64,000 bases of DNA, taken from the NCBI GenBank assembly GCA_963575645.1, contig OY754467.1, forward strand, positions 2,666,001 to 2,730,000, written 5' to 3'. The DNA is from Xanthostigma xanthostigma (taxonomy: Eukaryota; Arthropoda; Insecta; Raphidioptera; Raphidiidae). Each line of letters begins with the position of its first letter. The stretch's first letter is position 1. Made by a program: the position numbers and the translations under genes. The notes below the pieces were generated by a model. That model was not told the origin of the DNA. It made no database searches and worked only from the letters and a program-made list of their open reading frames with translations. Below, in pieces: positions 4,325 through 61,050 of the stretch.

Positions 4325-4928
4325 CTAGCGGTCCCGTCCGGTTTCACCCGGGTGTAAAAGAACGAATGGGGTAGGGAGGAACATGAGTACCTACACACAT
4401 TCATCTTGTTTACCGAGATGAATGTTGTGTCCAAATTTCATGATGATCGGAGTTACCGTTCAAAAGCTTTTGTCGATAAAAAGCAGTATTTAATATATTT
4501 TTTTTAATTAATTAAATAAAATTAAAATAAATTTAAATGTTAGCCTTAGTAGAAAGCAATGTAGAAAATAAAAAAAAAAAATAAAAATATTTTCGCCCAA
4601 CGTGGGGCTCGAACCCACGACTCTGGTATTGACAGTCGCATGCTCTACCGATTGAGCCATACGACGTTGTGTAGTCACAACGCTAATATGAGTATATTTA
4701 GTTAGTGCATTTCACCTGAATTTTTGAGATACATTTTGCAACATTTTTCATTAATGCTCCGCTCCTAATGATCGTAGCGTGATATTATATAGCCTATAGC
4801 CTTCCTCGATAAATGGGCTATCCAAAAAAATTTTTTTTTTAATTTGAACCAGTAGTTCCTGAGATTAGCGCGTTCAAACAAACGTACAAACAAACTCTTC
4901 AGCTTTATATAATATTAGTATTAGTATA
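4325..4928 (-). mobile_element. Non-autonomous Helitron family C, copy 1 (tRNA-carrying)
   Basis: Read on the minus strand, the 3' end is a CCCGGGTGAAACCGG hairpin followed by GACGGGACCG and CTAG, with T next. This is the Helitron 3' signature. The 5' end has the AATATTATATAAAGCTGAAG / GTTTGTTTG run typical of insect Helitrons, although the first TC is eroded. A tRNA-like segment sits in the middle (4594-4666). No Rep or helicase sequence is present, so it must have been moved in trans. Confidence 0.8.
4594..4666 (-). pseudogene. tRNA-Lys-derived segment inside Helitron C1
   Basis: 73 nt, the usual tRNA length. The D arm reads GGCTCAATCGGTAGAGC and the T arm GTGGGTTCGAGCCCCAC, with TTGGGCG at the 3' acceptor, as in metazoan tRNA-Lys. 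The anticodon loop now reads CTGTCAA, and the 5' acceptor CGTCGTA no longer pairs with the 3' strand. It is therefore a decayed tRNA, not a working gene. Confidence 0.75.
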
Positions 4929-6135: not shown

Positions 6136-6845
6136 AATAAAAAACCTGTTCCTGAAAAAGTTCAAATTTTTATTTGATCTTTTCGTGCTTTTCAAATTGA
6201 TTGCGTAGATCTTTTTATCTTTTAATAAATTGAAATTTGTAAAATATATAATCTTTTGATGTCAATTCATACATATTTGCATTTAGACTTAACTTTAATC
6301 CACAAAAAATCGCATGCCCTGTTTTTGCCTTTGTAACGCTCAACTATAAAATTGCATTTTTGTTTTTATTAATGGGATTAGTTATTTTCATTCAATTTGT
6401 TTCTAGCTTGTGTTTAATTCGTTAAAACCCTGATGATTATTTATTGCAACTTTTGATGTCAAATTGACAGCAGATTTCTGAGGAAAAATCTGTTATTTTT
6501 CTGACACGAAAAACAAACATTTATTACTAATTATTGGAATATTGATGGAACGAAATAACAGTGTCTTATTTTTTAAGGCTATAATTTCTTCTAAAAAATG
6601 TGGATTTGCGGACCATGCAGAGTTATTTATGATTAGCGGCCCGAATTTGTAGATTGCCACTGTTTTTTCGTCGACTTTCCTTGCTAAATTGGTCTCCACG
6701 AAAAGCGCTTTTATTTTAACGTCTTATATATAGCCTATGTCCATCCTGAAGAACCGTTCTAATTATTAGTGAAAAAAATTTTGAAATTGGATAAGTAGTT
6801 TCGGAGATTACATCCGACATCTAAACTTACAAACTTTACTTCTTT
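6136..6845. other. Unassigned stretch
   Basis: AT-rich. TCTGACACGAAAAACAAAC and the block around 6735 (AGCCTATGTCCATCCTGAAG) look like eroded transposon tail sequence, but I cannot assign it. Confidence 0.35.

Positions 6846-21624: not shown

Positions 21625-21628
<4 letters not shown>
21282..21628. other. Unassigned spacer
   Basis: AT-rich, between Helitron H1 and a GA microsatellite. Confidence 0.35.

Positions 21629-21669
<41 letters not shown>
21629..21669 (+). repeat. (GA)n microsatellite
   Basis: About 20 uninterrupted AG units. Such runs bind GAGA-type factors in insects, but nothing here shows a promoter. Confidence 0.9.
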
Positions 21670-21737: not shown

Positions 21738-22170
21738 CTAGCGGTCCCGTCCGGTTTCACCCGGGTGTAAAAGAACGAATGGGGAAGGGAGGAGCATGAG
21801 TACACACATTCATCTTAGTTTACCGAGATGAGTTGTGTCTAAATTTCATGATGATCGGAGTTACCGTTCAAAAGTTTTTGTCGGTAAAAAGCAGTATTTA
21901 TACTTTTTTTAATTAATTAAATAAAATTTAAATAAAAAATGTAAGCCTTAGAAGAAAGCAATGTAGAAAATTAAAAAAAAATAAATAAAAATGTATTCGC
22001 TCTACGTGGGGCTCGAACCCACGACCCTGATATTGAGAGTCGCATGCTCTACCGATTGAGCCATCTGACGTTATGTACTTACAACGCTAATATGAGTACA
22101 TTTAGTTAGTGTATTTCACCTGAATAGAAGCTTATTTTTGAGATACATTTTGCAACATGCTTGCGATGTC
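21738..22170 (-). mobile_element. Helitron family C, copy 2 (5'-truncated, tRNA-carrying)
   Basis: Carries the CTAG terminus, CCCGGGTGAAACCGG hairpin and internal tRNA segment as in copy 1, and stops after CATTTTGCAACATG. The 5' Helitron end is missing. Confidence 0.75.
21998..22070 (-). pseudogene. tRNA-Lys-derived segment inside Helitron C2
   Basis: 73 nt. D arm GGCTCAATCGGTAGAGC and T arm GTGGGTTCGAGCCCCAC are intact. The anticodon loop reads CTCTCAA instead of CTCTTAA, and the acceptor ends no longer pair well. Confidence 0.75.
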
Positions 22171-31400: not shown

Positions 31401-31581
31401 TATAATTTTGGAAATTCATACATTTTTAGAGCTGAAATTTGAAACCCCGACAGTGGCTAGCACAATAACCATTTTTTTTATTCAGCATTTTTTTCGTCTA
31501 TTACATTATACTAGTCTATCCTCTATATATGGTTTTTTGTCAAACCCGGTGTTCATAACTAATAAATTTAGAATTTTGTTA

Positions 31582-32518
31582 TCTATACTAATATATAAAG
31601 CAGAAGTTTATTTGAACGCGCTAATCTCAGGAACTACTGGTTCGAATTGAAAAATTTTTTTTTGCTGGATAGCCCATTTATCGAGGAAGTTAAAACCTTT
31701 TTTCGTATATCTCATAGTTTGTGAGATAATTAGAAAACAAAATTTAAAGGGGCGGTTTCTACCCTAACTGCAAATCGGAGCACACTGTTTCATAGTCAGA
31801 ATAGTTTCTTGTAACCCCAAGAACGATCACTGAAATTTTTAGCCGTTTGAGATTTTAGGTATTTCACGAAGATCGTTCTTGGACTATATAGGCTATATAA
31901 TATTACGTTACGACTAATAGGAGCGGAAAATCAATGAAAAATGTTGCAGAATGTCAGTCAAACTTTTTCACAATATACTTATATTCAGGTGAAATGCCCT
32001 AACTGAATATCCCAATATTAGCGGCACACGACAGAAGCTCGGTTAGATCAATCGGTAGAGCGCTCGACTCTTAATCTCAGGGTCGTGGGTTCGAGCCCCA
32101 CCTTGGACGAATATCTTTTTAATGTTTTGTTGTTTTTTTTTCTACATTGCCTTCTTCTAAGACTATCATTTAAATTTATTTACGACTAATTAAAATTAAA
32201 TAAATCTAAATAATAGCTCATTTGAAAACTATTACAGTACATACCTATATATAAAAATAATTTTCCTACAGTGTTTTCAATTTTATTAATAATACAGTAA
32301 TTATTGATTTAAAAGAAATAATTATTACTTAAAAAAATATTTTCATCAAAAAATGGAGGTTTGAGTTTAAAATAAGTAATAAAGCAGGGAACTGCCGAAA
32401 ACTGCAAAAAATTTGGACCCAACATTCATCTCGGTAAACTAAGATGAATGTGCTTACTCATGTCTCTCCCTTCCCCATTCATTCTTTTGCACCCGAGTGA
32501 AACCGGACGGACCGCTAG
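31582..32518 (+). mobile_element. Helitron family C, copy 3 (full length, tRNA-Lys-carrying)
   Basis: 937 bp. It begins TCTATACTAATATATAAAGC after an A, then GAACGCGCTAATCTCAGGAA. It ends with a GTGAAACCGG hairpin, ACGGACCG and CTAG before T. Compared with copy 1 it has extra sequence on both sides of the tRNA segment. It contains AGGAGCGGAAAATCAATGAA and CATTCATCTCGGTAAACTAA, also present in copy 5 at 60.8-61.05 kb. No Rep/helicase. Confidence 0.85.
32037..32109 (+). pseudogene. tRNA-Lys(CTT)-like segment inside Helitron C3
   Basis: 73 nt. D arm TAGATCAATCGGTAGAGC and T arm GTGGGTTCGAGCCCCAC hold recognisable A and B boxes. The anticodon loop CTCTTAA gives anticodon CTT, as in tRNA-Lys. The anticodon stem and two acceptor pairs are broken, so function as a tRNA is unlikely. 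Pol III promoter activity is possible. Confidence 0.8.
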
Positions 32519-32857
32519 TAAATAATAAATTATAAAAATGTATTAGGTAATGTATCTACCCTGACCACAATAACTGCGCAGGCGCCTTGAGTAACCCAAA
32601 GGCACAATACGTACTTATTATTATAGACAACAAACACAACTGCATCGAAGACATTAATTATATTTTATTAATTATATTTTTAATTAAATATTATTAACTA
32701 CATGCCAAGCGTATATAATATTACAGCGTCTGTCTATTTCTATACTATATATTTAAATAAAAATCAAATTTCAATTATCTTTAGTCAGTTATATTATTTA
32801 TACATTTAATAAATCGTAAATTTATGCAGTAGTATTGCAGAACCGGGATTTCATATA

Positions 32858-50575: not shown

Positions 50576-50700
50576 CTAGCGGTCCCGCCCGGTTTCACGC
50601 GGGTGCAAAATAACGAATGGGGGGAGGGACATGAGTACACACATTCATCTTAGTTTACCGAGATGCATGTCCTAATTTCATGATGATCGGGGCTGTTAGC
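50576..50700 (-). repeat. Helitron family C, 3'-end fragment (copy 4)
   Basis: CTAG, CGGTCCCGCCCGGTTTCACG and the ATGAGTACACACATTCATC block only. tRNA and 5' end are absent. Confidence 0.7.
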
Positions 50701-60792: not shown

Positions 60793-61050
60793 TGGATAGC
60801 CCATTTATCGAGGAAGGCTATAGGCTATATAATATCACGCTACGGCCAATAGGAGCGGAGCATTAATGAAAAATGTTGCAAAATGTAACTCAAAATTTGT
60901 CCGTCCGACAAAAACTTTTAAACGGTATCTCCGATCATCATGAAATTTGAACACAACATTCATCTCGGTAAACTAAGATGAATGTGCGTACTCATGTCCC
61001 GCCCCCCATTCGTTCTTTTGCACCCGGGTGAAACCGGGCGGGACCGCTAG
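60793..61050 (+). mobile_element. Helitron family C, copy 5 (tRNA-less)
   Basis: Starts within GGATAGCCCATTTATCGAGG and ends CCCGGGTGAAACCGGGCGGG, ACCG, CTAG before T. Compared with copy 3 it lacks the 5' end and everything around the tRNA. It has the cleanest 3' hairpin of the family. Confidence 0.75.

Follow-up and report, generated by a model that had tools for sequence, protein, structure and literature searches.

Within a 64,000-nucleotide stretch of the genome of Xanthostigma xanthostigma (Raphidioptera; contig OY754467.1, positions 2,666,001 to 2,730,000, hereafter the window), we encountered a repeat family, many of whose members carry, in their interior, a 73-nucleotide segment derived from a lysine transfer RNA (tRNA-Lys). 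Judged by its termini, the repeat is a non-autonomous Helitron (5'-TC, 3'-CTAG, inserted between A and T) that is widely spread in the genome, which we surveyed over 28 contigs and 623 Mb (window at G000:C4:2666001-2730000). The interpretation that we favour, at a probability of roughly 0.75, is that a core Helitron captured the tRNA piece internally in a single event and was then amplified, with the tRNA carried along as a decaying passenger.

Termini and abundance of the family

The focal copy lies on the plus strand at 31582..32518, as delimited by its sequence and by end mapping together with 29 other loci, and belongs to a young subfamily. It begins with TC (31582-31583) after an A at 31581 and ends with CTAG (32515-32518) before a T at 32519. 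All 55 copies whose 5' ends were mapped from base 1 begin with TC, which is preceded by A in 49 of them. The CTAG terminus conforms to the CTRR pattern of Helitrons, and the T that follows it is part of the pattern used for sampling and is not independent evidence for an A/T target. A weak hairpin (-4.1 kcal/mol with DNA parameters) is predicted in the last 45 nt of the element. The 5' sequence probably resembles that of lepidopteran Lep1 elements. An exact 23-mer of the 5' part had no matches in a collection of viral contigs.

With up to two mismatches allowed, a 26-mer representing the 3' end of the family (ending in CTAGT) matches the genome at 12,833 places and a pattern representing the 3' half of the tRNA at 6,152; these counts come from different patterns, the larger includes members that have no tRNA, and their ratio is not a fraction of the family. 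Reversed controls gave no matches to either pattern, and since 6,152 matches to the tRNA 3' half stand against none in its control, the tRNA-like segments are not chance occurrences. Among the 100 perfect matches to the tRNA 3' half that were listed, all on contig C1, 66 lie below 17 Mb and the other 34 between 17 and 53 Mb, and the family may be spread unevenly along this contig.

Internal position of the tRNA segment and the core junction

We examined 20 sites, taken by position along C1 from the 100 listed perfect matches to the tRNA 3' half (6,152 in total), and found element sequence on both sides of the tRNA in all 20. The tRNA is not a 5'-terminal head of the repeat but starts approximately 263 bp into the element, and according to BLAST the upstream flank is present in 56 of 57 tRNA-bearing copies, L098 being the exception. 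We also fetched 84 perfect 3' ends from 100 listed, all of them on C1 below 16.9 Mb, of which 73 have tRNA sequence. The earlier note on this DNA had raised the question of whether most family members lack the tRNA; in this sample the first 110 bp of the element are matched at 69 ends, and 68 of these both-ended copies carry it. The counts and the shared upstream flank favour the captured gene that the note took to be the better reading, although they do not prove it. A genome search with the focal copy gave 7,715 candidates, of which the 40 that were scored align across the tRNA region, having been picked by likeness to a query that itself holds the tRNA.

Eleven of the sampled ends lack the tRNA. 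Seven of these (L039, L044, L051, L096, L119, L128 and L132) read as members of the tRNA lineage that have been truncated or interrupted, three have a distinct core junction (L047, L101 and L110), and L127 was placed in neither group. A sequence flanking L021 was also considered as a tRNA-less copy and rejected; at L021 3343-3639 the family 3' end is followed directly, head to tail, by the 5' end of another element. The core junction is seen as well in the window, where a tRNA-less member that has lost its 5' part occupies 60793..61050 on the plus strand (W60793), as identified by sequence comparison. W60793, L101 and L047 read CTCAAAATTTGTCCGTCCGACAAAAAC with small differences. At the corresponding place the old-type consensus has CTCAAAA, followed by approximately 270 bp and then TCGACAAAAAC, and where it holds these 270 bp the three core copies have TTTGTCCGT(C) in common. 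The junction of the tRNA-bearing form is CTCAAAAATAAGCTTCTATTCAGG, and the leader upstream of its tRNA runs from ATTCAGGTGAAATGC to ATATTAGCG.

From this arrangement we infer the following course of events. A non-autonomous Helitron core of approximately 335 bp would have come first, and would have gained about 270 bp of host DNA internally, comprising a tRNA-Lys(CTT) gene, or a pseudogene of it, together with the leader and T-run terminator that belong to it. Approximately 10 bp of the core would have been replaced by the captured piece, as would be expected if filler-DNA repair had taken place within the element. The form with the tRNA would then have amplified as one of the main forms and diverged into subfamilies, its tRNA part decaying as a passenger.

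Decay of the tRNA part

In the focal copy the tRNA-Lys(CTT)-derived 73-mer lies at 32037..32109 on the plus strand and matches the Rfam tRNA model RF00005 over positions 1-71 of 71 with 24.4 bits, under the gathering score of 29. Its box A region (TAGATCAATCGG) is at 32044..32055 and its box B region (GGTTCGAGCCC) at 32088..32098, both on the plus strand. Just 3' of the tRNA a T5 run resembling an RNA polymerase III (Pol III) terminator occupies 32116..32120 (plus strand).

The consensi of the family were compared with a tRNA-Lys-CTT sequence. The young and old consensi are each identical to it at 65 of 73 positions, but share only one of their eight changes and depart from it mostly at different sites. 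Because the changes are mostly unshared, their ancestor probably resembled a real tRNA more than either consensus does. The consensus of subfamily II (six copies) is identical at 68 of 73 positions, with all seven pairs of the acceptor stem. In the old-type consensus an inverted repeat, GCGTTGTG-AGAA-CACAACGC, adjoins the tRNA on its upstream side and overlaps its first bases. Copies L082, L091 (which starts GCCCGGATAGCTCAG) and L106 form a small subfamily with a T arm differing from that of other copies, possibly of a tRNA-Lys-TTT-like kind.

According to the earlier note, the D and T arms with boxes A and B are kept while the acceptor and anticodon stems decay. We tabulated stem pairing in 66 copies, having left out 11 of 77 for more than two gaps in the tRNA. 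The T stem is complete in 49 and the D stem in 40, the acceptor stem (7/7) in one and the anticodon stem (5/5) in none, the best anticodon stem having three of five pairs. As regards the stems, the description holds for the family, and less well for the focal copy itself, in which by reading only three of four D stem pairs remain and the box A region reads as given above. The anticodon position is occupied by GTC in 44 of the tabulated copies and by CTT in 10. At 20 chosen loci the Rfam tRNA model finds 12 matches at E <=1, of which 10 reach the gathering score, and nothing at the other eight; the best score is 39.4 bits (L063). ARAGORN called no tRNA gene in the 64-kb window, nor in a 30-copy consensus. 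With no such call and with the stems broken in the tabulated copies, we rejected a functional tRNA-Lys gene. The idea that the anticodon stem was broken already in the common ancestor was also dropped, as position 29 still has the tRNA-Lys base in some copies. The tRNA part looks like a decaying passenger and not a working gene or a maintained promoter.

Alternative explanations

Two other histories could place a tRNA inside a Helitron. A tRNA-Lys-derived short interspersed element (SINE) might have landed in a Helitron and been amplified with it as a composite. We regard this as quite unlikely: none of the 20 sampled tRNA sites is free-standing, although rare free copies are possible, the element sequence extends upstream of the tRNA in all but one of 57 copies, and the T-run lies directly 3' of the tRNA, no systematic search having been made for SINE tails and target duplications. 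As all the sampled sites are inside the Helitron, one internal capture is favoured over a roaming SINE, which we set aside as the main explanation. It is also unlikely, though marginally less so, that the tRNA-bearing form is the older one and that the tRNA-less cores arose from it later by deletion. The tRNA-bearing form is the commoner at perfect 3' ends, and the core copies are not monophyletic on the tree built from the ends, both of which suit this order of events; but the approximately 9 bp common to three core copies are absent from the old-type consensus and would not be made by simple deletion, and some acquisition from the host must in any case precede the tRNA-bearing copies.

Several observations weigh against a single capture by a pre-existing core. 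The core-first order rests on few copies, and the common ancestor of the four core copies in the tree of ends has 11 leaves. One of the core copies, L020, is shorter at the junction, where TTTGTCCGT is missing from it; in the young consensus TCAAAATTTTTC stands near the junction, the exact place of which differs between forms. The 84-end sample is biased, consisting of perfect 26-mers from one part of one contig, and subfamily II includes four copies, of six in all, that had been selected for a perfect tRNA 3' half. The deviating T arm of L082, L091 and L106 could have come from a second tRNA or have arisen by conversion.

The earlier note further suggested that the tRNA may give the Helitron a Pol III promoter, in which case boxes A and B would be kept by selection and the promoter might aid movement or expression. 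We consider this improbable. Changes on internal branches (source lineages) were compared with those on terminal branches (later decay), first of all in a set of 57 copies, 53 from the sampled ends and four from the window and a flank, using a tree built without the tRNA columns; four partial copies were left out of this set (of 61) and of a larger one (of 89), and L036 and L088 from a third (of 77). In the 57 copies, boxes A and B stand apart from the remaining tRNA positions (p = 0.028), as does box B alone (p = 0.042, or 0.089 in 85 copies), but the boxes do not stand out from the upstream flank, the downstream flank or the 5' body (p = 0.17, 0.72 and 0.50; 0.16-1 against single flanks in 85 copies). 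When 28 young copies chosen by similarity are added, the contrast with the rest of the tRNA disappears (p = 0.55). In 75 copies the outcome depends on the tree: without the tRNA columns the boxes contrast with the remaining tRNA (p = 0.0045) and with the pooled flanks (p = 0.039), whereas with the all-column tree p is 0.25 and 1.0, respectively. Random windows in the flanks were as low as the boxes in 303 of 2000 and 925 of 2000 draws on the two trees. As a positive control, the last 111 bp of the element were clearly constrained (p = 3.6e-4 and 5.4e-6).

Of 53 copies, 30 combine both box motifs with a T4 run, and in 43 a run of T4 or longer lies within 30 nt of the tRNA (8 of 89 rows were left out of this analysis). 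Against this, altered forms of box A are frequent in young copies: among 35, of which 28 were similarity-chosen, it starts with TAGCTC in 11, TAGATC in 12, TAACTC in six, TACCTC in three and TAGCTA in three. Distances within the variant groups (0.039-0.048) are close to those between them (0.043-0.050), and the variants therefore mark no clean subfamilies. As they are far too frequent for independent decay at such low divergence, the pattern is best explained by source copies in which box A was already altered, or by exchange. Retention of the A and B boxes depends on the tree and on the sample, and a promoter that the Helitron needs is not supported by these comparisons, which is not proof that there is none.

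A different signal emerged between the two strands of the decayed stems. For the 5' strands of the acceptor and anticodon stems in the 75 copies, the ratio of internal to terminal changes is 0.92 or 1.10 on the two trees, compared with 0.28 or 0.31 for the 3' strands and 0.37 or 0.38 for the flanks; the 5' strands differ from the flanks at p = 5.9e-5 and 5.5e-5 and from the 3' strands at p = 0.003 on both trees. This contrast is post hoc, having been set after the 57-copy result was seen and in overlapping copies, and is best treated as a lead. The better-kept D and T stems go with this fast change in the acceptor and anticodon 5' strands, and exchange between subfamilies could be the source of the asymmetry. 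A further reading, to which we give little credence, is that selection acts to disable the tRNA as such, leaving the D and T arms, whereas the Pol III cassette is retained by the Helitron; if true, no functional or mischarged tRNA would be made.

Other family members in the window

The focal copy contains a 197-bp insert (31690..31886, no strand assigned); it was covered by no other aligned row in the genome search with the focal copy (40 scored of 7,715 candidates). The conserved 3' end of the family, common to tRNA-less copies, corresponds to 32408..32518 (plus strand, 111 bp), with few changes in source lineages. Two old-type copies with a tRNA, identified from sequence and the family alignment, lie on the minus strand. 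The first (4325..4928) has its 73-mer at 4594..4666 (minus strand; RF00005 32.0 bits at 4602-4659). The second (21738..22170) has its 73-mer at 21998..22070 (minus strand; RF00005 29.4 bits at 22006-22063), lacks the 5' end, and aligns only to positions 176-441 and 667-777 of the consensus; a (GA)n microsatellite adjoins it at approximately 21628-21668. Three tRNA-Lys-like 73-mers in one sense within one Helitron family, as the earlier note described them, are therefore present, but the second copy is not enclosed by both Helitron ends. A family 3' end alone, without tRNA, was found by sequence comparison at 50576..50670 on the minus strand.

Relation to known systems and implications

Lep1 and other lepidopteran non-autonomous Helitrons are described as having 5'-TC termini and A/T insertion, some families reaching thousands of copies in a genome, and their acquired sequence differs between species (PMC4038834, PMC3789558). 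The present family resembles Lep1-type elements in the 5'-TC, the A/T target, the high copy number and the possession of acquired sequence; Lep1, however, ends in 3'-CTRY and has its acquired sequence at the 3' end, whereas in the present family a tRNA-derived piece was acquired and sits in the interior. The word 'tRNA' does not occur in the main texts of these two papers. Insect Hel1 Helitrons comprise a shorter core and derivatives with internal captured regions, for which a filler-DNA model is discussed (PMC6544945). Our family likewise consists of a core element and a form with an internal acquired region, and replacement inside the element would fit that model; 'tRNA' is again absent from the main text of the Hel1 paper, whereas the piece captured here is tRNA-derived.

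In Heliconius, the Metulj SINE is reported inside a Helitron-like repeat (PMC4016481), and there too tRNA-derived sequence has spread together with a Helitron-like element. The Heliconius composite holds a known SINE, in contrast to the present family, for which no free-standing tRNA repeat was seen at the 20 sampled sites. An Arabidopsis tRNA-Cys cluster overlaps annotated Helitrons, and its authors state that this would be the first case of a non-coding RNA taken up by a Helitron; none of three Helitron-finding programs made a reliable prediction across those tRNA genes (PMC10701932). Both cases link a tRNA gene to a Helitron, in Arabidopsis as a proposal for one local, weakly supported cluster; the family described here has clear ends, a clear target and pattern counts in the thousands. 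Our search of the open-licence PMC literature turned up no insect Helitron described as having captured a tRNA gene.

Copies of this family could inflate counts of tRNA genes and tRNA pseudogenes in genome annotation, as may be expected from the proportion of chosen loci that reach the Rfam gathering score. With clear Helitron ends and thousands of pattern matches to the tRNA piece, this one genome amounts to a large experiment on the fate of a captured Pol III gene.
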